64,000 nt of DNA from Mesorhizobium liriopis (GTDB taxonomy: Bacteria > Pseudomonadota > Alphaproteobacteria > Rhizobiales > Rhizobiaceae). Position 1 is the first letter of the stretch, and the number at the start of each line of letters is the position of its first letter. Shown here one piece after another: positions 13,321-27,600 of this stretch. The notes under the pieces are model-generated. The model saw only the letters and a program-made list of their open reading frames with translations, was not told where the DNA came from and did not search any database. Made by a program: the position numbers and the translations under genes. The stretch is taken from NCBI RefSeq assembly GCF_024053505.1, contig NZ_JAMXQS010000009.1, positions 1-64,000 of the forward strand, given 5' to 3'.

Positions 13321-14655
13321 CTACGCGTTTCGCGTTATGAATCGTGCTCGCTCGAGCAGTTCGTCGAACGTAACGATATCGATACCGCGCGTCTCTCGCC
13401 GGAACAGCTCAAACGTGTCACGCATGATGTTGGCGTCTCGGGCGTTACCAGAACGCTCAAACTCCTCCGAAGAGCCGAAGACGAGGATCGCTTTGGCGTT
13501 GCGGGTTCGGGCCGCAAGTTCGACGCCTTGTCTATTGTAGTTCTCACCGTGTTGAGCAAATGCGGCCCATTCCGCTTTCTGCTCGAGAATTTGAGATACG
13601 GCACTTATGAATTGGGGGGTAAACTCCCACGTGCCCGCTCGGGAATTTCCGCCGGATGTCCGTTTGAAAATCGCGGTATCCGGCCGCTTTATCTCAACTA
13701 GAACCGTGTAGTCTTTGAACGTTTGCAGGAAGTCGAGGAGCGGCTTATTGCGATTGTCCGTGCCTCCCCCGCCGACCGTCGCCTCGCGGTCAAAGGTCCT
13801 CATGATCCGATAATCTAGGCCGTAACCGAAAACCCAGCGCTCGCTATCGAAGAAGTCTTGCCAAGAGGCCTCTGCCCAGTCGCCGGCCCCCATTTCGCGC
13901 TCAAACTGCTCGAGGCCCTTTCGACGCCCGAGCAATATGTTGATTTCCTCAGCAGTTAGGTCATCTTGCAATTCCGCCAGCGCACCTGCTCGCTGCTCCC
14001 GGGGCAGAGACTTCAAGCGCGCAATTAAGGTACGATCATCCGCGTCGATAATCGCCTTTCGACCAGTACCGGTTGAAATGTCTTCGATCTGATGCGTATT
14101 CTGGTTGCTCGGATCGACGAACTTGATCTGCTCCAGAAACTGGAGGAGGCGGGCAAACTCTTCGCCACGGAACGTGAATTCCTCCTTCTCCGTGCCTTCA
14201 TACCACCCGCCGGCCCGGCTTCTAAACGTTTCGAGAGTAAGACGGCGAATTCCCTTGTGGTCGCTCGTTACAATTGCCGACACTTGGGTCTTGCGCTTCT
14301 CTCCCGTCAAGCGGAGGCAGAGCGCGCCCTCGATCTCGCCTAGCAGCAGTTCGTCGCTGCCCACGAGGATCATACGAACAAACCTGAGCTTTTCATCATT
14401 GATGGACCCCGGGCGGTCGAAAATTTTTGATAGGTAAGTCTTCCCTGCGACGCGATTTTTGAAAAATTCATAGTCGCCTTCGTTACTCAATGCGCACTCC
14501 CAAGCCCTATTGATTCGACAATGCTGCGAAATTGCCAAATCCGCTAGAGGTACAGCTGGAAGCCACGCGACTGGCGCCTCGTGATTGATCGGAAGCTGCA
14601 TTGGGGTGGGAAGTTGACGGTCGGCTCCTGAGCGGTGAGTTATTGAAGCGGACAT
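13321..14655 (-). CDS. sduA: Shedu anti-phage nuclease (SduA, DUF4263)
   Basis: This is a 444-residue protein. Residues about 245-430 match the Shedu/DUF4263 nuclease: LEQFEREM, then WQDFFDSERWVFGYGLDY, then KPLLDFLQTFKDYTVLVEIKRPDT, then FISAVSQILEQKAEW. Asp308, the Glu321-x-Lys323 pair and Gln355 form the PD-(D/E)XK-type active site. Residues 1-240 are a separate N-terminal region, presumably the sensor half, with no domain I recognise. Shedu is a single-gene defence system that cuts DNA upon phage infection. GGGAAAG about 5 bases upstream supports the ATG at 14655. The gene is divergent from the MerR-ATPase gene and flanked by direct repeats. Confidence 0.85.
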   Translation of the reverse strand: MSASITHRSGADRQLPTPMQLPINHEAPVAWLPAVPLADLAISQHCRINRAWECALSNEGDYEFFKNRVAGKTYLSKIFDRPGSINDEKLRFVRMILVGSDELLLGEIEGALCLRLTGEKRKTQVSAIVTSDHKGIRRLTLETFRSRAGGWYEGTEKEEFTFRGEEFARLLQFLEQIKFVDPSNQNTHQIEDISTGTGRKAIIDADDRTLIARLKSLPREQRAGALAELQDDLTAEEINILLGRRKGLEQFEREMGAGDWAEASWQDFFDSERWVFGYGLDYRIMRTFDREATVGGGGTDNRNKPLLDFLQTFKDYTVLVEIKRPDTAIFKRTSGGNSRAGTWEFTPQFISAVSQILEQKAEWAAFAQHGENYNRQGVELAARTRNAKAILVFGSSEEFERSGNARDANIMRDTFELFRRETRGIDIVTFDELLERARFITRNA

Positions 14656-14803: not shown

Positions 14804-15868
14804 ATGAACCTTTCGCTTCGCAGTTACACACCCGCGCAAGCCAGCGCTTCTCTTGGCGTTTCGGCCAAGGCGTTACGCCTCTACGAGCAGCACGGTCTGC
14901 TATCACCCGATCGCACCCGGACGGGATGGCGCACTTACGACGCTGCTGTGATGGCCCGGGCGGCCGAAATCGTTGCACTGCGGAATCTAGGTCTAAGCCT
15001 CGTTCAGGTTGCCCGTGTACTCAGTGGGGAGCCACGCGATCTGGATGCTGCCCTTGCGGCTCACGAAGCTCGCTTGAGCGAGGCGGGCCAACGTACGGCT
15101 GCCGCTCTCGAACGGATAAGGTCACTACGCGCGGAACTCGCCCAAGGCCGCGTTCCAACCGCCGCAACATTGGCGCAGGCGATTGCCGAAAATGCACCCG
15201 CGACAGTCGGCTTTGCACTACCGTGGCCGTGGGCTGGAGAGTGGTTCGCTATCCACGACGTTCCCCGCCTATCCTTCATCACGGGGGCACTTGGTAGCGG
15301 GAAGACCCGGTTCGCCCAGACCCTCGCCGCTGCGTTGCCCGATGCTGATTTCCTTGCTCTTGACCGCCTTAGGGATCCAGCCATTGCGCAACGCCTTGCG
15401 GAGGATCCGTTACTCGCAGAACGGGTCGAACGACGCCTGACGTGGTTGGTCGAGGATGGTGCGGAGCGGTCGGAGGCACTGACTACGCTGGTTGTCGCGC
15501 TGGAGGCGGCGAAGCCCACAGCGCTTGTGGTCGACATGGTGGAGGAAGGGTTGAACGCGGCAACGCAGGTGGCGCTGATGGCACACTTGCGCCTCCGAGG
15601 AATGAGCAAGCGCATGCTTGTCCTAATGACGCGTTCCTCAGCGATCCTTGATCTCGACATGCTTGAGCCTTCGGAGATCGTCATCCTGTGCCCGGCCAAC
15701 CACAGCGTTCCGCTTCTAACCGCCCCATATCCAGGCGGGCAAGGTTATGAGGCTGTGGCCACATGCATTGCTTCGCCTGAGGTCCGGGCACGTACCGCGG
15801 GGGTCGTCGCCATGCGCCTTCACGATCTGAGCGGTAGAACAGCATCCACATCGAGCCAAAGTTGCTAG
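14804..15868 (+). CDS. MerR-type HTH fused to a P-loop ATPase
   Basis: This is a 354-residue fusion. Residues 1-75 form a MerR HTH (SYTPAQASASLGVSAKALRLYEQHGLLSPDRT, then GWRTYDAAVMARAAEI). Residues 80-115 form the usual dimer coiled coil. Residues about 150-340 form a P-loop domain with Walker A GALGSGKT (161-168) and a Walker-B-like ALVVDMVEEGL around Asp244. There is no ligand-binding or metal cysteine cluster as in ordinary MerR proteins. It may couple nucleotide hydrolysis to transcription control, or act like a kinase or uptake ATPase. It is divergently placed from Shedu with about 150 bases between starts. Confidence 0.8.
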   Translation: MNLSLRSYTPAQASASLGVSAKALRLYEQHGLLSPDRTRTGWRTYDAAVMARAAEIVALRNLGLSLVQVARVLSGEPRDLDAALAAHEARLSEAGQRTAAALERIRSLRAELAQGRVPTAATLAQAIAENAPATVGFALPWPWAGEWFAIHDVPRLSFITGALGSGKTRFAQTLAAALPDADFLALDRLRDPAIAQRLAEDPLLAERVERRLTWLVEDGAERSEALTTLVVALEAAKPTALVVDMVEEGLNAATQVALMAHLRLRGMSKRMLVLMTRSSAILDLDMLEPSEIVILCPANHSVPLLTAPYPGGQGYEAVATCIASPEVRARTAGVVAMRLHDLSGRTASTSSQSC

Positions 15869-16795
15869 ATGGGTGCCGAACGACCGCTTCTAGGAAGGTT
15901 CAACGCCTGTTCGTAGGGCTGAATTGGGGTCGAATGCGGACATTTGACCCACCGTGCACGAACGTCTGTTCTGCGCTTGCCGACAACCAAAACCAGACGG
16001 TCCGCTCCGGGCCCAACCTCAGACGCGCAAGAATCTTTGGAGCAAGATTGGCAGATGCAAGGGTCGGGTCTAGCCGTTCTAAGATCGACCCGATGCGGTT
16101 GAGCGAAAGCTCTGTCTTATTATCGGGGGTCTGTAGCTGCCTGAAGATCACAGCATCAATTCGGAAGCGGTAGAGCTGATGCTGCTACAGCTCTGCGATG
16201 CAAGACCAAAGCGGATGAGAGCCGGACGGCGGCATAGAGCATAAAGCCGCCGGTCTGGTTGCAGCGGCAAACCTTGCCGGACCGCTGAGGTGGCAGACGC
16301 GGCGCGCACAACCGACATCGAGTTTTGGTCGGCATCGAGCCATTCGACACGAGGCACAAGAAGGCGGTGGTGCAACGCGAGAGAGGTTGCCGAGGCAGGC
16401 AAGCTTCTCAAGGTTACCATCGATAGCGGGGGGGGGCGCGCAGTTCGGGCGCGCGTGTGCTTCGAGCTCTCACCACCTCAGCTCAAGTTATCTACACACT
16501 GATCAGACTTGCCGGCACATTGGAATAATTTGTGCTCTTGCGATTCAGAACATTGGATTGGCGATTCAAACGCTCTTGGTTGCAAGCTGCCAACCAAACC
16601 GCGCGGCCTGGATGGGTTCGCATGTTTGTTCGATGACGGTAGCCGTTTCCCTCTGATCTGCTGATCTGCTGGTCTGCCGCTCTGCCGTGCTTTCCAAGCG
16701 GGGGGAGCGGCTCTCTCTCGCCCTCTGCCGCTTTTGTGTCTTGCAAGCCCTGGCCCCATCCTTGGGGTGCGGAACTAACAGGGGGAGCAGACGGG
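15869..16795. other. Non-coding stretch, about 930 bases, next to the recombinase
   Basis: No supportable gene is seen. It contains dispersed repeat copy B (15926-16020), a G8 run near 16430, and a run of imperfect TCTG-CTGATCTGC units at about 16650-16690 just upstream of the recombinase. The position suggests a junction or attachment region, but no matching second attachment site was identified. Confidence 0.4.
15926..16020. repeat. Dispersed repeat, copy B (right of Shedu/MerR-ATPase)
   Basis: GGGGTCGAATGCGG at 15926-15939 and AAAACCAGACGGTCCGCT followed by CCGGGCCCAACCTC (to 16020). Same orientation as copy A, with 59 rather than 38 bases between the two parts. A third, partial copy lies at 26002-26030. 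Confidence 0.7.
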
Positions 16796-17782
16796 GTGTT
16801 TGCAGAAGCCATCAGCAAAGCGGGCAAGGAGCCGACCCGAACCGAGGGGACGGGTATCGCCTATGTGGCGAATGCAGCCTGCGTGGTGCGCGCAGCCCAG
16901 CGCGAGCTCGGCGGGCGGCCAACCCTTCTCGAGGTCGTGGGATGGTTCACCCAGGCGCACCGACGCTATCAGCCATCCACCATCCGGCAATACAAGGCCA
17001 GCCTCAAGACGCTCGGTGCCGTTCTTCGCCATCAGGGCAAGCTTGCCGAGGCAGAACTCGCAGCCGTCCTGCAGCGGCTTGAGACCCCACCCCAGCCGAT
17101 GGGAAACGGGCCCAAGCGGACCTCGGCCAAAAAGCGGCGCAGCATCCGGCCAGCCGAGCTGCGCGCGCTGATCATGAGCCTGCGCAACAGCGATCGCGAA
17201 GACGATGCCTTTCTGGCTCAGTATATCGGCATGACGGTGATGGTGTTCCCACGTCCGATCGAGTGGGCCAACGCACAAAGGGACGGCCAAAGGCTTGTGC
17301 TCGTTAACGCCAAGACCACGAACGGCCGCGCCCATGGGCCAACGCGCACGATCGAACTGCCGGGAATGTCGCGTCAGCAGCTCGAAGGCATCGACGCGTT
17401 TCTCATAGCCCTGCGCACGCGCGCAGACGCAAAAGGCAACTGGCAATCCTTCCACCGCTGGCTGGCGCGACAGCTGAGGGCTGCCTGCATCCGTGCGGGC
17501 ATCGCACCCCTTGCCCCCTACAGCCTGCGTCACCTCGGCATGGCGAGCGCAAAGAAGCTGTTTGACGCCCAAACGGTTGCCTACCTTGCCGGGCATGCCT
17601 GTGATCGCACGGCAAGCTCGCACTATGCGCCGGCACGCTCAGGCCTCAAGGGGGTGAAGGCGGTGATTGCGGCAAGGCCTGAGAATGTGGGGCTTGTGCG
17701 CGTCACGGGACGCGCCAGCCGGCGCGAGCACCTGGCAAGGCGAGAGCACACGCCCCATTCCCCGCGGCCGTTTGTTGGGTGA
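16796..17782 (+). CDS. Tyrosine recombinase (integrase-like)
   Basis: About 328 residues from the GTG at 16796, which has GGGGGAG about 9 bases upstream; a GTG at 16736 in frame lacks this. Residues 10-95 resemble a core-binding SAM-like domain (PTLLEVVGWFTQAHRRYQPSTIRQYKASL). The catalytic part shows Arg153 (FPRPIEW), a beta-hairpin Lys173 (NAKTTNG), Arg245 in YSLRHLG, His267 in LAGHA, and nucleophile Tyr277 in SSHYAP. The first position of H-x-x-R is Tyr instead of His, so the set is complete except for that substitution. It converges with the AAA+ protease gene and is the mobility gene of the island. Confidence 0.8.
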   Translation: MFAEAISKAGKEPTRTEGTGIAYVANAACVVRAAQRELGGRPTLLEVVGWFTQAHRRYQPSTIRQYKASLKTLGAVLRHQGKLAEAELAAVLQRLETPPQPMGNGPKRTSAKKRRSIRPAELRALIMSLRNSDREDDAFLAQYIGMTVMVFPRPIEWANAQRDGQRLVLVNAKTTNGRAHGPTRTIELPGMSRQQLEGIDAFLIALRTRADAKGNWQSFHRWLARQLRAACIRAGIAPLAPYSLRHLGMASAKKLFDAQTVAYLAGHACDRTASSHYAPARSGLKGVKAVIAARPENVGLVRVTGRASRREHLARREHTPHSPRPFVG

Positions 17783-17800
17783 GAGAGAAAGCGAAAGCCG

Positions 17801-20317
17801 TCACGGCGCTGGCGGTGTGGCTGCCGGCGCAACAGTCTCCTCCAGTCCCGCTGCCAGTCGGATCGCCTCGCCTTCGAGTTCGCCTTTTGCCTCGAGCGCC
17901 TGTGCCAGCCGTTCGATGGCATGGCGGTGGTCAGCGCAGAGGCTATGGGCTTCGAGGTACGCCTCATCGAGCTGGCTGTGCACGCGGGCCGCAAAGGGGG
18001 GATCAAAGGCAAGCCTGTCATCAAGCGCCTTGTCGCTTTGCCAGATCAGCGGATGCTTCTCCTTGCCCCAGCCATACGAGCCCTCCATCCTTACTGCGAT
18101 GCGGGTGGCAACCGCGAGATCGCAGGAAGCCTCACCCCCGCCTGAGCCGACCGAGAGCGAGCCGAGCAGAGTGCTCTCTGCCGCACGGCCTGCCAGCGTG
18201 AAGACAAGCAAGCGCTTCAGGTCTGCGAACTCGCCTTCCATCTCGTTGTCGAGATCGTTGCTGAGCGTATGGGGTCCAAAGGGACCATCGAGCGTGATGC
18301 GCTGGGGTGTGCCCAGGTTGCGCACCATGTGCACCACCGCATGGCCTGCCTCGTGGATAGCGATGCGTCTGCGCTTGGGCGCGCTCAGCTTGGGCCGCTG
18401 GTCGAGAAGGGTTGCTTCGAGATCGGCATAGGCGAGAGCCCGTTCTTCCCGCCGTGCCCGGCCCCTTGCCTCGCGGACCAGGCGTTCGATGTCGGCACCT
18501 GACAGGCCACGAGCGAGACGCGCGAGGGAGGCGAGGGTGCTGCGGACAGGAGCTTCGTCAGCGGTTGCGGCTGCCATGCCGTTCCCGTCTCTGTCTCTAT
18601 CTTCCCCTCCCTTCGTATCCGCGCTCCTGCTCGCCACCACATCAGAGAGCGCATCGCCCAGATGCGTCTGGAAGATGCGTGCCCGTGCGCTCTGGTCGGG
18701 CAAGGTGATCCTCACTTGGCGCTCCAGCCTGCCCGAACGCAGGATGGCAGGATCGATCACCTGCGGTCGGTTGGTGGCACCCACCACGATCACGCCTTCC
18801 GTTCTGGCTGCCCCATCGAGAAGGGTGAGGGTCTGGTTGACCAGCGAGATCCAGTAGTCGCCATGCTCGCGCCGGTCCTGGTCTTCGCGTGAGCCCAGAT
18901 TGTCGATCTCGTCGATGAAGAGGATCGCGGGCTGGGCGCTACTGGCTTGCGCAAAGGCGCGCTCCATGCGCTGGAGCACATCACCCAGATAGCTCGCCTG
19001 CAGCCAGGTGGCGACGGAAGTGACGAGAAGAGGCAGTTCGAGGGTGTTTGCCAGCGCTCGGGCAAACAGCGTCTTGCCGGTGCCGGGCGGACCAGACAGC
19101 AGGATGCGCGAGGAGAGCTGGTCCCAGCCAAGCGTGCCATCCCGCCATGATGCGAGATCGGCCTTCAGCGTCATGGCCCAGTCGTGGGCTGCACCATAGC
19201 CTGCGAGCCGATCGAGGTGCGGGGCGTTAGCGGACGTGTCAGGTGCCACGAGCGTGCCACCTCGTCCACCATCACGTCCCCGGTTGTTATTGCCGCTGCC
19301 CTTGCGCCCCAAGCCAGACGACCAGCTGCCGGCCTTGCCGCTGCCGCCGGAGCCAGTGCCCTGGCCTTCATCCCCTTTGCCGTCCTTCTCTTCGTTGGCC
19401 TTGCGTTGTTTGTTGTCGCGCGCATAGCGCACGAGGTCCGCGATGATGGCATCGTGTGATCGGCCCGGGCGGATAGCAATGGCGAGATCGGCCAGCGTCA
19501 GATGCTGGCAGGTGACGGCATCGAGATGAAGACGGTCTGGATCGTCTGGATCGGCGATCTTGGAAGCCTCCCCATCGCCGCCGACGATCTCGACGTCTGC
19601 TGCCCCGCTTCTGGCTTCGCCATCCGCCTCGGTGCCCACCATGAGCCTGATCACATCCTCTACGATCGCTGGTGTGAGCGGCCCTGTGTGGAGGATGATG
19701 TTGGCAACATCCTCAAAGCGCAGGGGCAGGTCGTCCCGTGTCCGGCCCAGGCTCAGCATAGGCGTGCTGTCGGCCAGCGCAGCGGCCAGTTCGCGAAGGT
19801 TCTGCGCGGCACTGAAGTCGGTGGTCAGGCGCAGAAGCGTTGCCACGCGGCGGGGTGCCGGGCTGTCCGCTTCATCACGGCGTCCGAACTGGCTGCGATA
19901 GGTGAACTTGTGGCTGCCCGGTGCTGCGAGATCGAAGGCCAGGCCCGGGATATCGGTCTCGCTCATCAGGCTGCGCAGGGCGGTGTTGAAGCCCGACAGG
20001 GGCGAGAGGATGCCAACGATGGGAGTTGGGCGCGCAAGCAAGTCTCGCATGCCCCGCAGACCAAGCCCTGACCGCTCAATGGCGTCGGCCAGAAGGAGAA
20101 CGATCGTCAACCGGATGACGGGAAGGGGAGACTGCGGCCGAGAATGAAGCGCAACGTCTGCGTGATCGTCGTGCTGCGTAGCATGCCCGTTCCTTTCAGC
20201 TTTCTGCTTTCGTCTCTGCTCGCGGCGCAGTGCACCGACCAGGAAGCGTGCGGTCGGCGACTTGGGAGTACGCTTGATGTGAGGCCTGGGTGCCGTTGCC
20301 GTCATTGATGCCGTCAT
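17801..20317 (-). CDS. Soluble FtsH-like AAA+ zinc metalloprotease
   Basis: This is an 838-residue protein. Residues 1-300 form a unique N-terminal region with no clear membrane span. Residues about 300-355 are a Gly/Asp/Lys-rich linker. Residues about 370-560 are an AAA+ module with Walker A GPPGTGKT (409-416), Walker B FIDEID (467-472), a sensor NRP and RSGRLE arginine-finger region. Residues 600-625 form the FtsH lid. Residues 645-830 are an M41-type peptidase with HEAGH (655-659) and third ligand Asp733 in GGEASCDLAVAT. FtsH is normally membrane-anchored; this one is not. The ATG at 20317 overlaps the upstream stop (ATGA). It is predicted to unfold and degrade specific proteins. Substrate unknown. 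Confidence 0.85.
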   Translation of the reverse strand: MTASMTATAPRPHIKRTPKSPTARFLVGALRREQRRKQKAERNGHATQHDDHADVALHSRPQSPLPVIRLTIVLLLADAIERSGLGLRGMRDLLARPTPIVGILSPLSGFNTALRSLMSETDIPGLAFDLAAPGSHKFTYRSQFGRRDEADSPAPRRVATLLRLTTDFSAAQNLRELAAALADSTPMLSLGRTRDDLPLRFEDVANIILHTGPLTPAIVEDVIRLMVGTEADGEARSGAADVEIVGGDGEASKIADPDDPDRLHLDAVTCQHLTLADLAIAIRPGRSHDAIIADLVRYARDNKQRKANEEKDGKGDEGQGTGSGGSGKAGSWSSGLGRKGSGNNNRGRDGGRGGTLVAPDTSANAPHLDRLAGYGAAHDWAMTLKADLASWRDGTLGWDQLSSRILLSGPPGTGKTLFARALANTLELPLLVTSVATWLQASYLGDVLQRMERAFAQASSAQPAILFIDEIDNLGSREDQDRREHGDYWISLVNQTLTLLDGAARTEGVIVVGATNRPQVIDPAILRSGRLERQVRITLPDQSARARIFQTHLGDALSDVVASRSADTKGGEDRDRDGNGMAAATADEAPVRSTLASLARLARGLSGADIERLVREARGRARREERALAYADLEATLLDQRPKLSAPKRRRIAIHEAGHAVVHMVRNLGTPQRITLDGPFGPHTLSNDLDNEMEGEFADLKRLLVFTLAGRAAESTLLGSLSVGSGGGEASCDLAVATRIAVRMEGSYGWGKEKHPLIWQSDKALDDRLAFDPPFAARVHSQLDEAYLEAHSLCADHRHAIERLAQALEAKGELEGEAIRLAAGLEETVAPAATPPAP

Positions 20318-21042
20318 GGCCGCACCGCCGCACTCGTGACCAGGCGCAGGATAGGCGATGGTGGCGGTGGTGCAGGAACAGGCTCTGGTTCGGGCTTGGC
20401 CTTGAGCTCTGACCCAAGTCCACCGCTGGCCCCGCCATCGCCGCCGATCAGCTTGTGTTCGAGACACCACTCCCAGATGATCTGTGCGGTCGGGTCGCCT
20501 GTTCCGACGAGGTCGGCGAGCGCAAGCCCAAGCCCGCGCGGCAGAAACAGGCCTCGGCCCTTGAGCATGTGGCCATAGCGCAGAGCGAGGCCAGCAACGA
20601 GGCTGGGGTCAATGGTCCCATTTGCGACAATGTCGCCATTCGCATAGCGCGCGGCTGCCTCGTCATCATGCGCTTCAAGAGCTGCAAATGATTTGCAGCC
20701 ACCCTCCTGGGCAGAATAAGCGGCGACGGAAGAGGAGGCACCAGTGTCGCTCCGTTTGCCCTCACAGTGGCAGCCGAAGCTTTGTCCGCTGCGGGCTGCA
20801 GCAAGGCATGCCGCGTCGTGGCCGAACGCGGTGAACAGGACGGCAAGCGGGCTCTCGGCAAGGGGTAGTGTCGAAGCCAATACGGTGGATGGCGTAGGAG
20901 CCGGTGCGGGCGATGGCACAACCGCATCCCGCACCCAGGGCAGGCGGGCAACCACGCTGCCGATGGGCTCGGACAGATGGGTGTCTGAGACGGTGTTCTG
21001 GTGGGAAGGCGAAGGCAAAGGGCAGAGGTGATCGGTCGTCAT
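20314..21042 (-). CDS. Hypothetical island protein, Pro/Ala-rich ends
   Basis: This is a 242-residue protein, co-translated with the protease (ATGA overlap). Low-complexity Pro/Ser/Ala-rich stretches at residues 40-60 and 205-235 flank a central globular part (LAVLFTAFGHDAACLAAARSG, then SLVAGLALRYGHMLKGRGLF, then AQIIWEWCLEHKLIGGD). GGAG about 7 bases upstream supports the ATG at 21042. No family is recognised. Close coupling suggests an adaptor or substrate of the FtsH-like protease. The 17-bp palindrome at 20682-20698 lies inside this gene and encodes part of CKSFA. Confidence 0.6.
   Translation of the reverse strand: MTTDHLCPLPSPSHQNTVSDTHLSEPIGSVVARLPWVRDAVVPSPAPAPTPSTVLASTLPLAESPLAVLFTAFGHDAACLAAARSGQSFGCHCEGKRSDTGASSSVAAYSAQEGGCKSFAALEAHDDEAAARYANGDIVANGTIDPSLVAGLALRYGHMLKGRGLFLPRGLGLALADLVGTGDPTAQIIWEWCLEHKLIGGDGGASGGLGSELKAKPEPEPVPAPPPPSPILRLVTSAAVRP
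20681..20699. repeat. Palindrome CTGCAAATGATTTGCAG, copy 1
   Basis: GCTGCAAATGATTTGCAGC at 20681-20699 is a perfect palindrome around one central base. The same 17-base core recurs at 22311-22327. It lies within the coding region of the 242-residue island gene. Confidence 0.75.
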
Positions 21043-21150
21043 GGCAAAGCTCCGCTTGTCCGGCAGGCTGCTTGGGCAGCGCCAGAGCGATGGGATAGGT
21101 TGTTCGAAGGGGATGGAGTGTCAGTGGGCCTAGGCGGCTGCCCTGCCGGT

Positions 21151-22215
21151 TCAGCTCGGCCCGGCCCGTGCGAAGCCGACGCTGACGCGCCGCCAAGCCG
21201 AGCGGCGGTCGTTGCGATCACGGATTGTGGGCCCGCCCGAGAAGCGCGAGTGCGGTGGCAAGTGTGCGCCGTCCACGAAGAGGTCGCCCTCTTCCATCAT
21301 GCTGTCGCCATCCAAGTGATCGGATGCGTTGGGATCGCAGGGATCGGCGTGCATCGCTGTCGTGCTGGCCGTAGCGGGTTCAGGTGTCGGCATCACAATC
21401 GCCCGGCACGCCTCTTCCATTGCAGCCTGAATGCGGGCAGCAAACAGCGCGCGCAAGTTGGCCATCGCTTCGCCCGCACCCGTCACCCCGATCAGGGTAT
21501 CGATCTCGCTGAGGCCAAAGATGCCCTTGCTATGATCGCTCGTCTCGTTTGACCCATCGATGATGGCAATGCCGACCTGTGACACAGGCGGCGCCTTGCC
21601 TTCCACATGCAGCCAGTCAGCGGCAATCATCGCCGTTGCCATCATACGCTCACGCAAGCGGTTGAGCCTGGTCTCGGAATAGGCATGCAGACCCCGCTTG
21701 AGATCGAGGATCAGAGCGGCATGCCTGGCCTGGTCCACGATCAGGAGATCAGGCGTGTAGGTGGTCTTCGCATGGACCTCGGAGCTCAGCTGAATGCCAC
21801 CCAGATCCTTCCAGCCATTCCGGCGAATGATGGCGAGTGCTGCGGGGACAATCGGCAAGGCGCAGTCGGAGGCCATCACGAGAAGGTCGGGGTTGAGCGA
21901 ACAAAGATGCGTCAGGCCCCCTTCGAGCAGCACACCCTCGTGGAAGGCAACGGAGCGGACGAGCGCAACCACAGGGGCAAACGCACCAAAGGCCAGATCA
22001 GGCTTGGCATCGCTTGAAGCCATGGCTGCCATCGCGCGATTGACAAGCTGGCCCCAAGCCGCCTCGACATCGAGCGGAAGGGGTGAGCTACACGATGCAT
22101 CGTCCAAGTTAGCAGGAAAAGCGTCAGCCGCATGTGAACGCGACGGGACTGAGGCCGAAGCGGAAGATGAAGCAGCTGCAAGGCGCGAGGCAGCCGAGAA
22201 CGTGCCGTGAGGCAT
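21151..22215 (-). CDS. Island protein with PD-(D/E)XK-nuclease-like motif
   Basis: This is a 354-residue protein starting at the ATG at 22215, which has GGAG about 8 bases upstream. The N-terminal 45 residues are Ala/Ser-rich. The centre carries Glu146 (SSEVHAK), then Pro155-Asp156 (YTPDLLIVD), then Asp171-Leu-Lys173 (ALILDLKRG). This is the E...PD...(D/E)xK spacing of restriction-endonuclease-fold nucleases. Helices follow (RLNRLRERMMATAMIAADW). The C-terminal 70 residues are acidic, then Arg-rich. The nuclease assignment is an inference from motif spacing, not a family match. It lies 108 bases upstream of the 242-residue gene, in the same direction. Confidence 0.6.
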   Translation of the reverse strand: MPHGTFSAASRLAAASSSASASVPSRSHAADAFPANLDDASCSSPLPLDVEAAWGQLVNRAMAAMASSDAKPDLAFGAFAPVVALVRSVAFHEGVLLEGGLTHLCSLNPDLLVMASDCALPIVPAALAIIRRNGWKDLGGIQLSSEVHAKTTYTPDLLIVDQARHAALILDLKRGLHAYSETRLNRLRERMMATAMIAADWLHVEGKAPPVSQVGIAIIDGSNETSDHSKGIFGLSEIDTLIGVTGAGEAMANLRALFAARIQAAMEEACRAIVMPTPEPATASTTAMHADPCDPNASDHLDGDSMMEEGDLFVDGAHLPPHSRFSGGPTIRDRNDRRSAWRRVSVGFARAGPS

Positions 22216-22308
22216 GAGGAGAACTCCCGAGATGTGATGAGGATGGCGATGCCGTTGCAGCCAGCGCGGCCGCAACAGCGCGCACCGACGGACTGTCTTG
22301 TGCAAGCC

Positions 22309-22329
22309 CCCTGCAAATGATTTGCAGGG
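22309..22329. promoter_or_regulatory. Palindrome CTGCAAATGATTTGCAG, copy 2, upstream of the nuclease-like gene
   Basis: CCCTGCAAATGATTTGCAGGG at 22309-22329 is a 10-bp perfect inverted repeat with one central base. It sits about 95 bases upstream of the ATG at 22215, a position suited to an operator. TGCAAAT-N-ATTTGCA resembles sites bound by Fur-family regulators in alphaproteobacteria, though nothing in the island suggests metal control. CAAG/CTTG arms extend it to 22303-22333. Confidence 0.5.
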
Positions 22330-22342
22330 CTTGAGCGCACGG

Positions 22343-22576
22343 TCAGCTGGCGAGGGCCGCCCTCGTGCCCAGCACACTGCGGCAGAGCACCAGGGCCCAT
22401 GCCGTGGGGCTCGGCTCTTCCATCACAACGGTCAGACCAGCAGGCCGGGCCATGCGATCACGCACCAGCGCACGACCATCATCCGCAGGTCGTCCACCAC
22501 GGGACGCACAAACGGGAACTTCCCCAAACGGGGCAATCAAGCTAGGGAGCATCTCAGCCCAATCCTTCTTAGCCAA
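22343..22576 (-). CDS. Doubtful small protein, 77 residues
   Basis: The frame starts at TTG (22576), MAKKDWAEMLPSLIAPFG, and ends WALVLCRSVLGTRAALAS. The amino-acid composition looks protein-like and the opposite strand offers nothing better, but no ribosome-binding site stands out. The rest of 22330-22916 holds one other weak frame (22662-22823) and the terminator. Confidence 0.35.
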   Translation of the reverse strand: MAKKDWAEMLPSLIAPFGEVPVCASRGGRPADDGRALVRDRMARPAGLTVVMEEPSPTAWALVLCRSVLGTRAALAS

Positions 22577-22661
22577 GGTTGCGGGTCAGGCCCTCGTTCG
22601 GTGCTTCCAACACCTGCGGGGGCCGCATTGTTCGATCCAGCTTCAACTGGACCGCTCTCAC

Positions 22662-22823
22662 CTAAGCAGGATCCGGGAGAGATCCCAAGGCGCCAAAACG
22701 CGGTTCGATCGTCTGAACGATCGCATGGTTAACGGCGGGCTCGTGAACCAAGCCGTTCAACGCAGGTCTGGACGCCGGTTCGCCAGCCATAAGACGTTCC
22801 TCCAGTTCATCTGCCTTCGCCAT
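22662..22823 (-). CDS. Doubtful small protein, 53 residues
   Basis: It starts MAKADELEERLMAGEPASRP at the ATG at 22823 and ends GALGSLPDPA. It begins just past the terminator that ends the DUF3102-like gene. Charged helical composition is plausible, but the ribosome-binding site is weak and no family is recognised. Confidence 0.3.
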   Translation of the reverse strand: MAKADELEERLMAGEPASRPALNGLVHEPAVNHAIVQTIEPRFGALGSLPDPA

Positions 22824-22837
22824 CTTTAGTGTCGGGC

Positions 22838-22868
22838 AAAAAGAAAGGCCCGGGGATGCCGGGCCTTG
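22838..22868 (-). terminator. Rho-independent terminator, minus strand
   Basis: Read on the minus strand, AAGGCCCGG pairs with CCGGGCCTT around a short ATCC-type loop, followed by TCTTTTTG. It lies about 50 bases after the stop of the DUF3102-like gene at 22917. Confidence 0.85.
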
Positions 22869-22916
22869 AAGACAACCCACGCTCAGACGCGTGGGATTGA
22901 AGCGAATGTGAGGCGA

Positions 22917-24242
22917 TCAGAGCTTGGGCGTCGGGCTCGCGGACGACCCAGCCTGTGCCGTCTTCATCAGAAAGTCCGGCCGCACCATCGTGCGTGGGGC
23001 CTTTGTCGCAGCGCTTTCCGTAAGCTTTTGGTTCGCGGTCGGTTGCAGCGCGATCGGGGCAACGGCCTCGTCGGTAGTGTCGCCAGCCATGGCGTCGTCT
23101 GCTTCCGCGGCCGCGTCAGTCCCTTCAGTCGCCTTGACCACGATCGCCACGGCCTTGGCCGGCTCGACAGTCTCGACGACTTCGCTCTCATCAACTGACT
23201 CAACCCGCGCCTCGGTCCGCGTCGGCATCAGGCGTGCCTCCACCTTCGGTAGCTTGCCTTTGGGCGAACCCGTGGTCCACAGAAGGGTCGGCACAACCGT
23301 GCCGCGCAGCCAGGCCAAGAGAACTGGACCCGAGGGCCAGCGGCTCATGTCGCCCAACTCGTTGAGCAAAGTGATCACAAAGCCCCAGCCCGACTTCGGA
23401 TCGAGCCGCATCGGCGCCATGTGCCATGGCTGGATGTCGTTGGTCGGCACCAGCGGCAGGATCAGATGCTCCAGCTCACGCCGGGCACGACGTGCCAAGG
23501 GCTCGACCTGTGGCCCAAGCTTGGACTTGGTGACCCTCTTGGGCATGGTGCCTGAGCCCATCGCCGCCTCGATCGCGCTGACGATGGAGCTGATGCGGCC
23601 CACCAGATCGGCAAAGCTCGTCTTCACCATCTGACGTGACATCGCCGTGATGCCGGCCGGTCCACCGATCTCGGTCAGTGGCACAATAGGTGCCGGCGCC
23701 TCGTTCGGATCCTTCAGCATCGCCTTGATGCCGGCAATGGTGAGCTTATTGCCCTTTTCCATCGCAGCCAGCACCTCTTCCACCTTGGCTTCGTTCTGGG
23801 TAGCGAGCGTCACAAGGGCCGTGGACGAGGCTTCCACTGCTTCGAAGCGGTGCCGCAGATGGCAAAGCCGCACATGGACGTTCATGAAGTTGGTCGCGTG
23901 CGTCCGGCTGTAGCCGTAGACGCGCTTGTTCCAGGCATGGAACTTGTCTTCGGGCACGATGACGGCGACCGCCACCATGCAGCGTCCGGTCTCGAAGACG
24001 TCGACCGTGCGGCGCCGGTGCAGGCTGTGCATGGTGAGGTTGAGTTCGGCGAGTGCGGGCATGTCGTCGGAAGCGACACCGCACTCGGCGGCAAACACTT
24101 CCCAGCTTGCGGGAAGTGCGGCAGCCAACTGCTCGGACGATGAAGACGCAGGCAAGGATGCATCGGACACAACAGATGTGGCGTCCGCTGCCTCACGCTT
24201 CATTCCCCCGCGCGCCGGGGCGTCGTGTGCATGTGTATGCAC
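22917..24242 (-). CDS. DUF3102-like protein; original start probably at 24296 behind an amber codon
   Basis: This is a 441-residue protein from a GTG at 24242. Residues about 65-130 match the DUF3102-type pattern: LNLTMHSLHRRRTVDVFETGRCMVAVA, then PEDKFHAW, then YSRTHATNFMNVHVRL. This domain is typical of mobile-element and phage proteins. The middle is basic (MPKRVTKSKLGPQVEPLARRARREL); the C-terminal 120 residues are low-complexity Ala/Thr/Glu. In the same frame, an ATG at 24296 has a far better ribosome-binding site (AGGAGAATTC) and reads MTTHTSTVPAPTA, then TAG at 24255-24257, then continues into this ORF. So codon 14 of the apparent original gene is a stop. A terminator follows the gene. 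Confidence 0.65.
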   Translation of the reverse strand: MHTHAHDAPARGGMKREAADATSVVSDASLPASSSSEQLAAALPASWEVFAAECGVASDDMPALAELNLTMHSLHRRRTVDVFETGRCMVAVAVIVPEDKFHAWNKRVYGYSRTHATNFMNVHVRLCHLRHRFEAVEASSTALVTLATQNEAKVEEVLAAMEKGNKLTIAGIKAMLKDPNEAPAPIVPLTEIGGPAGITAMSRQMVKTSFADLVGRISSIVSAIEAAMGSGTMPKRVTKSKLGPQVEPLARRARRELEHLILPLVPTNDIQPWHMAPMRLDPKSGWGFVITLLNELGDMSRWPSGPVLLAWLRGTVVPTLLWTTGSPKGKLPKVEARLMPTRTEARVESVDESEVVETVEPAKAVAIVVKATEGTDAAAEADDAMAGDTTDEAVAPIALQPTANQKLTESAATKAPRTMVRPDFLMKTAQAGSSASPTPKL

Positions 24243-24254
24243 GAGAGCGGGATC

Positions 24255-24296
24255 CTACGCCGTGGGCGCAGGGACGGTAGACGTGTGGGTGGTCAT
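24255..24296 (-). other. 13-codon leader ending in in-frame TAG
   Basis: ATG at 24296 with GGAGAATTC before it, 13 sense codons, TAG, then open frame into the DUF3102-like ORF. It could be a nonsense mutation, a leader peptide with reinitiation, or an amber-readthrough site. Confidence 0.6.
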
Positions 24297-24815
24297 GAAT
24301 TCTCCTTCTCTGACCATGAACCTCTGCCCACCGCTGGATCATCCCATGCAACGGGCATTGAAAGTATCATAGCTCAGAAAAGAAGGACTGGCAAAAATGG
24401 TAATGTACATAATTGTTTAATTATACCAAAATGTACTTGAGATATCTAATTATATGAAGAAAACGACGGAATCTTGGAAGTGAAATACATGACATTAGAT
24501 TATGTTGCTGTCATTCGTAAAAAAATTCATGTCATCTAACTCGTCTATGCTGTTATCGAGCGCGATCCGTAAGCCGAGGCGTTATCGCAGCCGCGCTGTG
24601 CTGCTGCGATAACGCCTCGGCAAGAGCAGTTCTCTGCTGAACCGCGTCCGCCATGATGACAGCAAGTAAAGTTGTAGGGTAGCCACCAAGGGGTGGCACA
24701 GCGCCTGTTACAGGGTTGACATATCCGTATGATCAACGAGAAGTGCGCGGGCTCAGTCTAAGACAGATTCATATGGACAGCGGAAATTTATTCGTTGCTC
24801 GGATAGGAGAACAAC
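24297..24815. other. AT-rich intergenic region with a large inverted repeat
   Basis: About 24370-24545 is strikingly AT-rich for this genome (runs such as AATTGTTTAATTATACC). No gene is seen. It should hold the promoter of the DUF3102-like gene (minus) and of the lipase gene (plus). The low GC suggests an origin, attachment or foreign segment. Confidence 0.6.
24573..24621. repeat. Perfect 19-bp inverted repeat, 11-base loop
   Basis: GCCGAGGCGTTATCGCAGC at 24573-24591 is the exact reverse complement of 24603-24621. No T run follows on the plus strand, so it is not a standard terminator there. A protein-binding or cruciform site at the island edge is likelier. Confidence 0.85.
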
Positions 24816-25655
24816 TTGGACTTTTACGCAGGAGTCGACGGCACCGGTGTCGGCAACGATGCCCAATACGCCAAAGATTTTACTGACAGCTACGTCAACC
24901 AGCTCTATCGCAGCAGCCGCTTTGATGTGCGCTATTACCTGCGCGGACCAACCTGGGAGGGCGGCACGGCCAAGGCGCTATCCAAAGAGATGCTGCGCGA
25001 GATGGAAACCCGCATCCACCAGAAAGGTGGGCGACAGGTGGGGCGGCTGATCCTTGCCGGCTACAGCCGAGGCGGGGCGATCGCTATCCGCATCGCGCGA
25101 GAGCTCGGCAAGCATGGCCATAAGGTGCACTGCCTCTTGCTGTACGACGCAGTGGATATGTCACTGGCGATTGCGGCCAAACAGATTCCCGCCAATGTGC
25201 GCTACTGCTTCCACGCCATGCGTGACCCCGTCTCACGCTCACGCACGTCCTGGGGCAATTGCGGTACCGAGCGTGAGGCCAAGGACGACAAAATCACTTA
25301 TTTCCGCTGGCGCCGCTTCATGTGCACTCATGGCGGCATGGGCGGTACGCCTTGGACCAAGGCCGATCCGGACGGCTTCATCAACGAGGCGCTAACGGGG
25401 CCTGAAACTACCAGCGCATTTGCCAAGATGCAGAGTAATATGGGCTATCAGGTTCTGCGGGCCACTCCTTTTGGCTTGGGAGGTGGCGCGATCATCGATG
25501 GTGCAGGCGCCGCAAACAGTTGGCACCGGAATTCGAGCCGTACGGCGATAACCCTTCGACAAGATCGCGATGAGTCACGGCAGGTCGGCATCTGGATGAT
25601 GAACAAGCTCGATTGGGCCTTAAAGCAGCAGGCCGCTCCAGCTCTCGTGGGCTAA
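24816..25655 (+). CDS. Alpha/beta-hydrolase, probable T6SS lipase effector (Tle-like)
   Basis: This is a 279-residue protein. It opens FYAGVDGTGVGND, the D-G-T start of DUF2235/Tle-type phospholipases. The nucleophile motif is GYSRGG with Ser84, followed by LLLYDAVDM (Asp111 or Asp114) and THGGMGGTPW with His172, completing a plausible Ser-Asp-His triad. The TTG start at 24816 is preceded by TAGGAGA at an ideal distance. No signal peptide is seen, as expected for a T6SS cargo. T6SS lipases attack membrane phospholipids of target cells. No obvious immunity gene or VgrG sits beside it, so the link to the T6SS rests on family and location. Confidence 0.75.
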   Translation: MDFYAGVDGTGVGNDAQYAKDFTDSYVNQLYRSSRFDVRYYLRGPTWEGGTAKALSKEMLREMETRIHQKGGRQVGRLILAGYSRGGAIAIRIARELGKHGHKVHCLLLYDAVDMSLAIAAKQIPANVRYCFHAMRDPVSRSRTSWGNCGTEREAKDDKITYFRWRRFMCTHGGMGGTPWTKADPDGFINEALTGPETTSAFAKMQSNMGYQVLRATPFGLGGGAIIDGAGAANSWHRNSSRTAITLRQDRDESRQVGIWMMNKLDWALKQQAAPALVG

Positions 25656-26061
25656 GGCGATTGAAACGACATGTCGGCCAATGAGGGCCGCGTGTGTGGC
25701 TGAGAGGGTATGCTGAAGTAACCAAGACGCCCCCATGATCGAAATCTGTGGTCGTGGATTACCTGATCTCTGCTTCGAGCCCGTTGCGCAATGGATCGAC
25801 ATCGACCAGCTGCACAAATTGCTCTGCCCCTTTAAGCCGTTGACTGATCTCCAGGTTGCCAAATCAGCTTAACACGTCCGCTTTAATAGGAGCAGTTTAC
25901 TGGCCTGCAACGGCATACATGGCTTGCCTGACCAATGCAGCGAAAGTCGAATGGCTCAAATGGGTGGAAAACGAGTTCCAGCTTCTCAAGTTTCTCTGCC
26001 TGAAACCAGACAGGCCGCTTTTGGCCAGAGACCAAAATCTTACCAATGCTTCCGGGCATGC
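25656..26061. other. Intergenic region, about 400 bases
   Basis: No convincing gene. A 45-codon plus-strand frame (25735-25872, MIEICGRGLPDL...) lacks a ribosome-binding site. A partial copy of the dispersed repeat (AAACCAGACAGGCCGCTTTT) lies at 26002-26030. Confidence 0.4.
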
Positions 26062-26447
26062 TTATGCGATGGCCACGATCTCCAGCTCACGCTGTCCGGC
26101 TCGCACGACGTCGCCGACAGCCTTGCCGATCAAAGCCAGCGCCACGGGCGATCCATGCGAGATCGAGCCATGCGAGGGGTTCGCTTCATCCTCGCCAACG
26201 ATGCGGAAGGTTTGGGTACGCCCATCATCGCGCGCGAAAGTGACGGTGTGGCCGAAAGCAACCACATCATAGGAGGCAGGCAAGTGCTGCAATTGGGCCG
26301 TCCGGATGCGCTCGGCATAGTAGCGCACGTCACGCATTGGTCCTGCCGCCTGTCGGCGCTTCTCGTTGACGTCGTCAATGAGTTGGCAGCGTCCAGAGCC
26401 TCTTGGGCACGTGCTAGTTCTCTAGCGTGAGGGAGGTAGCTCTCGAC
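26062..26447 (-). pseudogene. GreA/GreB-family elongation factor remnant, frameshifted
   Basis: The C-terminal GreA domain is intact in one frame (26062-26337: YDVVAFGHTVTFARDDGRTQTFRIVGEDEA, then GSISHGSPVALALIGKAVGDVV). The preceding coiled coil continues upstream in this frame as LIDDVNEKRRQAAGP, then breaks off; the next part, ARELARAQEALDAAN, is in another frame. The junction is near 26372-26380. The N-terminal third of a normal GreA relative is missing, since the remnant abuts the stop of the immunity gene at 26448. Translation from the ATG at 26337 could still give a 91-residue C-terminal domain, but without the coiled coil that reaches the polymerase active site. Confidence 0.8.
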
Positions 26448-27122
26448 TCAGCCTAGCGACCTGACCGGCACAATTTCCTCCGCTGTTACTGCAACGAGCT
26501 GAAATTCCTCAAGCTGAGCTAAAATGGTAAAGTGTTCGGCTGCCGACAAGCGCTTGATATGTTCCACAGACCGCATTGGGCTGAACGCTCCTGAGATCGC
26601 CAGAGCAGGCACGAAGCCGAGGCATTGTCCCTCTTCGAGGCTTCCATAAGCTTCCACGCAGCGGTCGAACATGGGTTCACCGCGAAAATCGAGAAAGTCG
26701 GCAGCGTCCTTGTCCGGCACCACACCTGCCACCAAGTGATTGGGCGATGCCTTGGGGCTCCAGTTCGGCACTGTAAGCGCTCTGCAGTAAATCGATGTTT
26801 CAGGCAGATTGATCTGAAAATTGGCAAGGCGCTTTGACCAGCATTGCAGAACGCCAAACGCGCTGAAGCCCACCACATGACAGTCCTTATGGTGGAAGTC
26901 TTTGTCAGCTTTGAATATCAGCGCAAGAATTGAGCGGAAGTCGTCAGGATCGCATAGGCTGAAGAGGCCATTGTGGAAACGACGAAACCCTTCTTCACAC
27001 AGAAAGCTCGCGAGCGACGGCGGCACCCATTGCCGAATCTTGTTTGCCGCCGCAGCATCAGGACGAGAGGCCTGAAGAATAGGCGTGTAGTGCTTCAGGT
27101 AGTAGGTGAAATTTTCATGCAT
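26448..27122 (-). CDS. GAD-like/DUF1851 protein, probable T6SS immunity protein (Tdi1-like)
   Basis: This is a 224-residue protein. The N-terminal half shows the GAD-like pattern (VPPSLASFLCEEGFRRFHNGLFSLCDPDDF); the C-terminal half shows the DUF1851 pattern (YGSLEEGQCLGFVPALAISG, then VEHIKRLSAAEHFTILAQL). The same two-domain combination is known for Tdi1, the immunity protein of the DNase effector Tde1 in Agrobacterium tumefaciens. It is cytoplasmic, with no signal peptide, as expected for protection against a DNase. It is the last gene of the hcp-type operon, 24 bases past the 147-residue gene. It may neutralise the effector encoded two genes upstream. Confidence 0.8.
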   Translation of the reverse strand: MHENFTYYLKHYTPILQASRPDAAAANKIRQWVPPSLASFLCEEGFRRFHNGLFSLCDPDDFRSILALIFKADKDFHHKDCHVVGFSAFGVLQCWSKRLANFQINLPETSIYCRALTVPNWSPKASPNHLVAGVVPDKDAADFLDFRGEPMFDRCVEAYGSLEEGQCLGFVPALAISGAFSPMRSVEHIKRLSAAEHFTILAQLEEFQLVAVTAEEIVPVRSLG

Positions 27123-27146
27123 GTCGGAGATCGATGACGACCGTTT

Positions 27147-27590
27147 TCATCCGATGAAACTTATCGGCTTGAAATCTTCCATCTTGCCCTCCCAAGTGCC
27201 GCGCGCGAAGGCCGTTACGGAATATTCTTCGCGTACGTTCTCGTCCAAGCGGCCGGTGGTGATGCCGATCTTGTCGAAAAGCACGACCCCAACATCTTCC
27301 AAAGCTTGCCCATTGGCTTCCTCCAGGCGGCGCATGACTTCAGCGCCCGGTGTTTCGAACAAGTCCATGCCTTCGAAGCGAACGTTTTTCACGTCGTAGA
27401 AAGCCTCGATCTGGTTCACCGTCCCGTTCCTGTAGCGCACGATAGGCTGATCCACTTCGCGGAACTCGCGCTGCGAGGCTCCACGGGTGTCAGCGGTTTC
27501 CGGCGGCCCCAAGATCGCTGCAACCTCTGCCGGCGTCATGCCGAACCTGATCGGGCCCATTCCTTCAAACGGCACAATATCCCATTCCAT
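27147..27590 (-). CDS. Probable immunity protein adjacent to the DUF4150 effector
   Basis: This is a 147-residue cytoplasmic protein. It opens MEWDIVPFEGMGPIRFGMTPAEVAAILGPP, a short fold in which a G-M-T-x-x-E-V-x-x-x-L-G-x-P turn recurs in BamE/SmpA-like and several toxin-immunity families. The rest alternates strands and helices (VNQIEAFYDVKNVRFEGMDLF). The start lies 10 bases after the effector stop. The position right behind a toxin is the main evidence for an immunity role. No enzyme motif is seen. Confidence 0.65.
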   Translation of the reverse strand: MEWDIVPFEGMGPIRFGMTPAEVAAILGPPETADTRGASQREFREVDQPIVRYRNGTVNQIEAFYDVKNVRFEGMDLFETPGAEVMRRLEEANGQALEDVGVVLFDKIGITTGRLDENVREEYSVTAFARGTWEGKMEDFKPISFIG

Positions 27591-27600
27591 GGCTTGTTCC

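Follow-up and report, generated by a model that had tools for sequence, protein, structure and literature searches.

A PD-(D/E)XK-type protein (nuc), a small variable protein (u) and an AAA+ ATPase with an M41 zinc peptidase, the last two on one chain or on two, appear to be encoded in a conserved operon that travels as cargo on both integrase islands and repABC plasmids, and judging from sequence comparisons we tentatively favour, at a little short of even confidence, a role in defence or in conflict between mobile elements. The analysis began from a window, meaning the whole stretch of 64,000 nt of Mesorhizobium liriopis contig NZ_JAMXQS010000009.1 (assembly GCF_024053505.1, positions 1 to 64,000) that was analysed, in which all five open reading frames of the original prediction were found where it had placed them. 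These genes and the features that accompany them are as follows.

13321 to 14655, minus strand: Shedu SduA gene (PADLOC PDLC00392, 1e-130), a neighbour outside the module
16736 to 17782, plus strand: tyrosine-recombinase-like protein, convergent with the protease gene, with 18 bp between the stops
17801 to 20317, minus strand: fused FtsH-like protease, 838 aa, with a head (about residues 60-330), an AAA+ large domain (about 400-560), a lid (595-627) and an M41 peptidase (645-819)
20314 to 21042, minus strand: u, a coupled ORF of 242 aa
20682 to 20698, no strand: palindrome CTGCAAATGATTTGCAG, second exact copy, within u and about 365 nt before the protease ATG
21154 to 22215, minus strand: nuc, PD-(D/E)XK-type protein of 354 aa, with E98, D156 and D171-L-K173 numbered from this ATG
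22311 to 22327, no strand: palindrome CTGCAAATGATTTGCAG, centred 104 nt before the nuc ATG, a candidate operator
22845 to 22867, minus strand: terminator-like hairpin with a T run, after the DUF3102-like gene
22917 to 24242, minus strand: DUF3102-like protein, 441 aa from a GTG, with an alternative ATG at 24203
24573 to 24621, no strand: near-perfect hairpin of 49 nt (arms of 22 nt, 95%), near an AT-rich stretch before the DUF3102-like gene

Transcription on the minus strand runs in the order DUF3102-like gene, nuc, u, protease, with the recombinase on the opposite strand, and the coupling that had been described is present, the protease ATG (20317) overlapping the stop of the 242-aa ORF as ATGA. 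The window copy of the module is atypical: it lacks F2 (a 115-aa protein of no known family that usually follows M41), its u is missed by the u profiles, its recombinase is rare, and its protease is of the fused, rarer form.

The main evidence for an operon is linkage. Among 297 genomes of the family, which were not selected for linkage and so provide the fair linkage figure, nuc was present in 59 genomes (85 places, 40 of 109 genera), and at no fewer than 64 of the 85 places, that is at least 64, distributed over 46 genomes, an M41 gene lay on the same strand 1746-3217 bp downstream. The 21 remaining places include some close to contig ends and some with weaker M41 matches outside those listed (for example G020 and G052, where the protease adjoins nuc). 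Seen from the protease, 52 of the best 62 M41 places were linked to nuc. The family is most likely Rhizobiaceae, judged by named plasmid records; in the class at large, nuc was found in 4 of 385 genomes, the window's own counted, and such a patchy spread is in keeping with defence. Loci were read around the closer protease matches and around 40 M41-linked nuc places, together with L069 and L119, giving 67 loci with nuc, among which L061 and L138, duplicates of L046 and L064, are counted, and L069 stands outside the counts over 66 loci as its record ends before M41. The presence of M41 in 66 of the 67 is no evidence of linkage, since these loci were picked as protease neighbours or as M41-linked nuc places. 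Across the 66 loci, u was found in 61, F2 in 52 and the DUF3102-like gene in 37; the profiles were built from the first 25 loci or so, and the 40 loci fetched afterwards gave u in 38, F2 in 34 and the DUF3102-like gene in 24. None of nuc, u, F2, M41 and the DUF3102-like gene occurred in any of 39 control regions, and an F5-kind integrase occurred in two of these. The recurrence in the same order that the original prediction had proposed to look for was confirmed for nuc-u-M41, which is found on many unrelated islands and plasmids. Linkage of this kind, combined with absence from the controls, argues for defence, and it leaves next to no room for chance neighbours or an annotation artefact: high G+C does yield many spurious ORFs, but these families recur together and are missing from all the control regions.

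Several sets of matches were kept apart from these counts. Excluded were 37 further loci that matched in or near the AAA domain, as judged from the list of matches, and three distant AAA loci from the genome contig scan. A phage origin was considered and rejected: of 41 phage records with a match to the protease none covers 80% of it, and in the 20 listed the match is confined to the AAA region; the viral contig collection contained one true module locus (L119). No description of the module was found in the literature searched (including PMC10924106), which covered the field in part, most subscription journals and bioRxiv lying outside it.

The window protease matches Pfam AAA at residues 405-538 (1.2e-31) and Peptidase_M41 at 645-819 (1.4e-12), with AAA_lid_3 at 595-627 under its cut-off (7e-05), and approximately its first 395 residues have no Pfam match. 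The unique head and charged linker of the original prediction were both recovered, the linker at about residues 300-360. Its HEAGH and third zinc ligand (SCDLAVAT) are likewise in place and nearly invariant among relatives, HExxH being kept in 65 of 66 M41 loci (L122 lacks it) and the third-ligand string SDLxxAT also in 65 (L030 lacks it). Conserved in the AAA part are Walker A, Walker B, a hydrophobic-Gly pore loop and the arginine pair of RSGRLE, elements with known functions in FtsH. The claim that membrane spans are absent stands in so far as no clear span was seen, and is weakened by a borderline segment at residues 62-80 (19-residue hydropathy maximum 1.49); the heads of 22 protease relatives gave hydropathy maxima of 0.38-2.08, and by this measure some of them may have a helix that touches the membrane. 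The head was also compared with a degenerate AAA+ domain, a candidate that was rejected (profile comparison probability 0.1).

In about 51 of the 66 loci the protease is encoded by two genes. The M41 chain of this split form starts with a segment around GADIERLVREAR, which in the window protein is the AAA lid (595-627), and the cut therefore falls within the AAA+ module, between the ATPase domain and the lid, which leaves the lid on the peptidase chain. A script rule that asked for an own Walker A in the M41 ORF scored 14 of 66 loci as fused and 52 as split; one of the latter (L034) is a cut fused form, hence the figure of about 51. On plasmid records the two halves are annotated as 'ATP-binding protein' and 'ATP-dependent Zn protease'. 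In two loci (L044 and L054) the AAA gene appears to be in pieces and M41 is still there, as is nuc in L044; these are probably decayed copies. All of 101 relatives searched had some protease match, mostly to ordinary FtsH.

The PD-(D/E)XK motif that had been claimed for nuc is upheld, with E, PD and DxK conserved across the nuc family and the full signature (E/Q, D, D/E, K) complete in 64 of 67 members. Together with the zinc ligands of the protease, these kept signature residues count in favour of defence; counting against it, the lysine is missing from nuc of L030 and L148, and the window itself has a divergent u and no F2. There was no confident Pfam match for nuc, and no NCBIfam or PADLOC family names it. 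Weak matches to nuclease-fold Pfam families were seen among 24 members, four to REase_AHJR-like (best 0.019) and three to VRR_NUC (best 0.008), none of them significant. By sequence, no solved structure was related to nuc or to the DUF3102-like family, each having one match, to designed proteins, at E values of 1.5 and 0.48, respectively. The AlphaFold models of the two families (mean pLDDT 42.8 and 38.4) are too poor for fold comparison; the order of elements in the nuc model, H-E-H-E-E-H-E, loosely fits an alpha-beta-beta-beta-alpha-beta core, at a mean pLDDT of only 42.8. The absence of a known family for these proteins, as originally claimed, held good in that Pfam, NCBIfam and PADLOC name no nuc, u or recombinase and leave the protease head uncovered.

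These kept nuclease residues and the tight spacing of nuc also bear on a very unlikely alternative, namely that the protease is an extra, island-borne FtsH-like enzyme of protein quality control or stress and that nuc and the others are passengers. Its FtsH-like AAA and M41 domains (TIGR01241, 9.2e-55) and the existence of nuc-less relatives beside other partners are what such an enzyme would lead one to expect; the constancy of nuc in spacing and sequence is not.

The u protein measured 118-242 aa among the cases examined. Window u matches u of L040 at 26% over 137 aa (7e-8) and that of L049 faintly (0.002), and the u profiles miss it at 1e-4; neither it nor u and F2 of the relatives has a family named in Pfam, NCBIfam or PADLOC. 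For the DUF3102-like protein, even the label is weak: the window protein matches DUF3102 (PF11300) at E 0.17 and 12.6 bits, under the gathering score of 24.4, and the best E value among 12 relatives was 0.0085. Its proposed membership of the set has a mixed record, the gene being present in 37 of 66 loci (on the same strand and upstream in 28 of the 37, counted by eye) but followed in the window by a terminator-like hairpin of its own, and from this arrangement the window copy is probably its own transcription unit; the scan for such hairpins returned 5 sites where 3.4 were expected from shuffled sequence. The 49-nt hairpin, whose end at 24621 had served as the right edge in the original prediction, stands in the gap between the DUF3102-like gene and the one after it (z -7.8), and its core has no additional match within the window. 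Beyond it, two further window proteins were recognised by eye, one DUF2235-like (24816-25655) and one PAAR-like, the latter possibly with a toxin tail (27601-29268); the genes from 24816 to 29268 may lie at the edge of a type VI secretion region.

The surroundings of the module are those of mobile DNA. A tRNA gene was present in the stretch for 16 of 37 scanned protease loci (Gln 8, Ser 5, Met 3), and the islands compared have their integrase flanked by a tRNA-Gln gene on one side and the module on the other. In the window there are no tRNA genes, and no convincing direct repeats bound the island. The module is also carried on repABC plasmids: rep genes were found within the region for five of eight nuc-bearing plasmid records, adjoining the module in two and 5 to 9 kb away in three, an adjacency that suits plasmid functions as well as it suits defence. 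The neighbour scan, which left out L061, L138, L069 and the window, drew ORFs from 61 loci, and at 1e-8 120 of these neighbour ORFs matched 217 PADLOC families, a figure that is not a gene count, as several families describe one ORF. Among the 25 families listed were HNH (5 ORFs) and, with two ORFs each, SNF2/DrmD/Zor/Brx-type helicases, DrmA and type IV restriction. By comparison, for 117 ORFs of the 39 control regions the matches comprised five families (mad3 4, mad8 4, mad2 2, GlgB-like 1, AriA 1), and Pfam gave a similar contrast between neighbours and controls. However, core chromosome makes up most of the control regions, and the richness in defence genes may therefore reflect the mobile island alone. 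The contrast places the module in mobile DNA that is rich in defence genes; it does not make the module a defence system.

The Shedu gene of the window, which ends 2.1 kb before the recombinase and 3.1 kb from the module, belongs to the same defence-rich setting. It is adjoined by a gene for a MerR-type regulator with a P-loop-like region (14804-15868). A protease relative without nuc (L028) lies near a Shedu that is 58% identical. That locus belongs with L029, L031, L070, L073 and L074 to a second AAA-M41 type without nuc, part of a wider protease family. Nuc-less fused AAA-M41 genes adjoin genes for a metallophosphoesterase and a DUF6634 protein (with Tn7-like genes in one record), other nuc-less genes of the fused form are near TIR and S8 peptidase genes or adjoin a metallophosphoesterase, and some nuc-less proteases have as neighbour F8, a small protein that looks TnsA-like by eye and matches no Pfam family. 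It therefore seems that the protease combines with differing enzyme partners, as happens in conflict systems, and this partner swapping argues for defence.

The recombinase fared less well as a member of the set. No Pfam model (PF00589 included) or NCBIfam model matched it at E<=1, nor did any PADLOC family, although the catalytic residues R...K...YxxRH...GH...Y can be recognised by eye. Its family occupies eight places in 7 of the 297 genomes. The protease lies within 1.5 kb in four of these (the window, L267, L270 and L272; the two genes converge in the window and in L270), and no protease was found within 1.5 kb in the recombinase stretches of L268, L269, L271 and L273. Since it adjoins the protease in only half of its places and other islands use a DUF6538-type integrase, the idea of a fixed recombinase had to be given up; on this distribution, it is part of the carrier rather than of the core module. 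Taken as a whole, the original interpretation survives in its gene co-occurrence, its lack of a family name and its kept residues, and does not survive in its fixed recombinase or its fixed DUF3102-like member. Large recombinase-like proteins were also noticed by eye in L041 (13138-15471, 778 aa) and L119 (8186-10810, 874 aa). The former has no Pfam match, and its gene is convergent with a DUF6538-type integrase gene and has its stop adjoining a palindrome.

The proximity of integrases is relevant to a second reading, in which the module would control the life cycle of its carrier: the protease would degrade a repressor or recombinase and so switch excision, transfer or replication, nuc would process the DNA of the element, and the DUF3102-like protein or F2 would be a DNA-binding regulator. 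We regard this as possible but rather less probable than not. An F5-kind integrase was found within 9 kb of the module in 17 of 66 loci and the window recombinase family in two, and the four of eight places where that family adjoins the protease point the same way; however, at least two unrelated kinds of integrase accompany the module, and its presence on repABC plasmids also counts against this reading.

A family of palindromes argues for this second reading. The 4.48-Mb genome contains just two exact copies of CTGCAAATGATTTGCAG, each of them within the module, and the relative CGGAAATNATTTCCG or a half-site-matched variant stands before nuc in 14 of 67 loci (the window counted; L061 is a duplicate). 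Palindromes of the CGGAAATNATTTCCG type are also centred 19-22 nt past the stop of the F5 integrase in 7 of 67 loci and lie 1289-1295 nt before the DUF3102-like gene in six, a gap that in L041 is filled by an HNH gene. From the nuc-proximal site to an ATG with a ribosome-binding-like sequence, the distance is 38-77 nt in 12 of 13 measured loci and 104 nt in the window; the locus at 38 nt (L141) has undetermined bases, and no such ATG was found in L142. AAT-centred palindromes numbered 61 in 1233 kb of nuc loci, homologous and duplicate loci being counted each time, versus at most 3 in 761 kb of controls, where they were not among the 12 commonest kinds, the last of which number 3. At the level of whole genomes, 73 sites were found in a selection of 37 of the 59 nuc-positive genomes (22 of these 37 with any) versus 11 in 37 nuc-negative genomes (7 of 37), with a reversed-pattern control giving 0 and 1, respectively. 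Thirty-nine of the 73 sites lie in 36 regions away from modules, which shows the palindrome to belong to these islands and not to the module alone; an F5-kind integrase was near the site in nine of these regions, seven of which have a tRNA gene. Palindromes of this family were seen on many islands, including L041, L045 and L130.

Both window copies have one half-site in common and both copies of L139 another, which suggests a co-evolving protein that binds the palindrome; in L121, the two sites differ at the centre base. A site before nuc suggests that the operon may also be controlled by a repressor, with its binding site preserved within any one locus. The palindrome is a candidate operator or recombination site. 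A terminator was rejected as its identity, as by eye there is no T run and the stem has A/T inside. Homology between modules begins exactly at the left site in 5 of 10 pairwise comparisons, which favours control of the carrier, as do the sites before nuc and past the integrase and the 73 versus 11 sites in nuc-positive and nuc-negative genomes. However, in the other five comparisons it passes the palindrome, extending 9 to approximately 940 nt further left, and in many pairs conservation extends over roughly 400 nt to the left of the nuc-proximal site, so that no block boundary lies there. For the defence reading, the many palindromes of the same design elsewhere, nine of these regions having an F5-kind integrase close by, are an adverse observation that favours element biology.

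The palindrome before nuc would also suit autoregulation of a toxin-antitoxin or addiction system that stabilises its carrier, with nuc as toxin, u as labile antitoxin and the dedicated protease as its degrader. This arrangement is unlikely. A location on plasmids and islands and a small ORF between nuclease and protease genes are what it calls for; however, a dedicated protease of 2.5 kb is costly, antitoxin turnover is normally the work of the host proteases Lon or Clp, and u, at 118-242 aa, was not found in 5 of 66 loci.

If the operon does act in defence or conflict, it would protect the cell or the carrier element against competing DNA, whether a phage, a plasmid or a rival island. The AAA and M41 parts, on one chain or two, would form a soluble hexameric protease like FtsH, and the head and u might serve as its sensor or adaptor. 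Once a trigger appears, the protease could destroy an inhibitor of nuc, or could itself be aimed at the trigger; u is the natural candidate for that inhibitor because it is small, variable and encoded between nuc and the protease. In either case nuc would then cut DNA. A narrower assignment, to a class of immunity or conflict systems in which a cytosolic FtsH-type protease, usually of two chains, gates a PD-(D/E)XK nuclease encoded upstream, with a palindromic operator of integrase-site design, is at present doubtful. If the proposal is true, the repertoire of mobile islands extends to a nuclease coupled with its own AAA+ zinc protease, as part of a module that is widespread in one family (59 of 297 genomes) and without a name in the libraries searched. 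Additionally, the split inside the AAA+ module would represent a natural two-chain FtsH, useful for studying communication between ATPase and peptidase. The module is compact, its genes are intact, and it can be tested in laboratory rhizobia.

Where parts of the module can be assigned (AAA-M41 and the PD-(D/E)XK signature), they are of known kinds, and the theme of a protease plus partner on a mobile island is likewise known. The nuclease signature of nuc (E, PD, DxK) recalls REase_AHJR-like and VRR_NUC proteins, to which its matches are weak and none significant. Regulated proteolysis occurs in mobile elements where FtsH acts on lambda CII and ImmA on ImmR, by the same logic as proposed here, although ImmA is not an AAA+ protease and no repressor of those kinds was identified at the module. 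IetAS consists of the AAA ATPase IetA and the serine protease IetS, and it resembles the module in combining an ATPase and a protease on islands. Among PADLOC families, IetA matches the AAA domain best (4.2e-28), which supports the defence reading. However, that match is limited to residues 401-617 of the window protease, the module has a zinc peptidase and a nuclease-like partner, and the other four proteins of the original prediction (nuc, u, the DUF3102-like protein and the recombinase) matched neither IetS nor any other PADLOC 2.0 family at E<=1. FtsH (TIGR01241) is similar to the window protease in having AAA+ followed by M41, the Walker motifs, HExxH and a distal Asp, and its aromatic-hydrophobic-Gly pore loop corresponds, by eye, to YLG in the window protease. 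However, the window protease scores 186.5 bits against a TIGR01241 cut-off of 600 and has a head of about 300 residues with no clear membrane span, and in about 51 of 66 loci its relatives carry the AAA large domain and the lid on separate chains.
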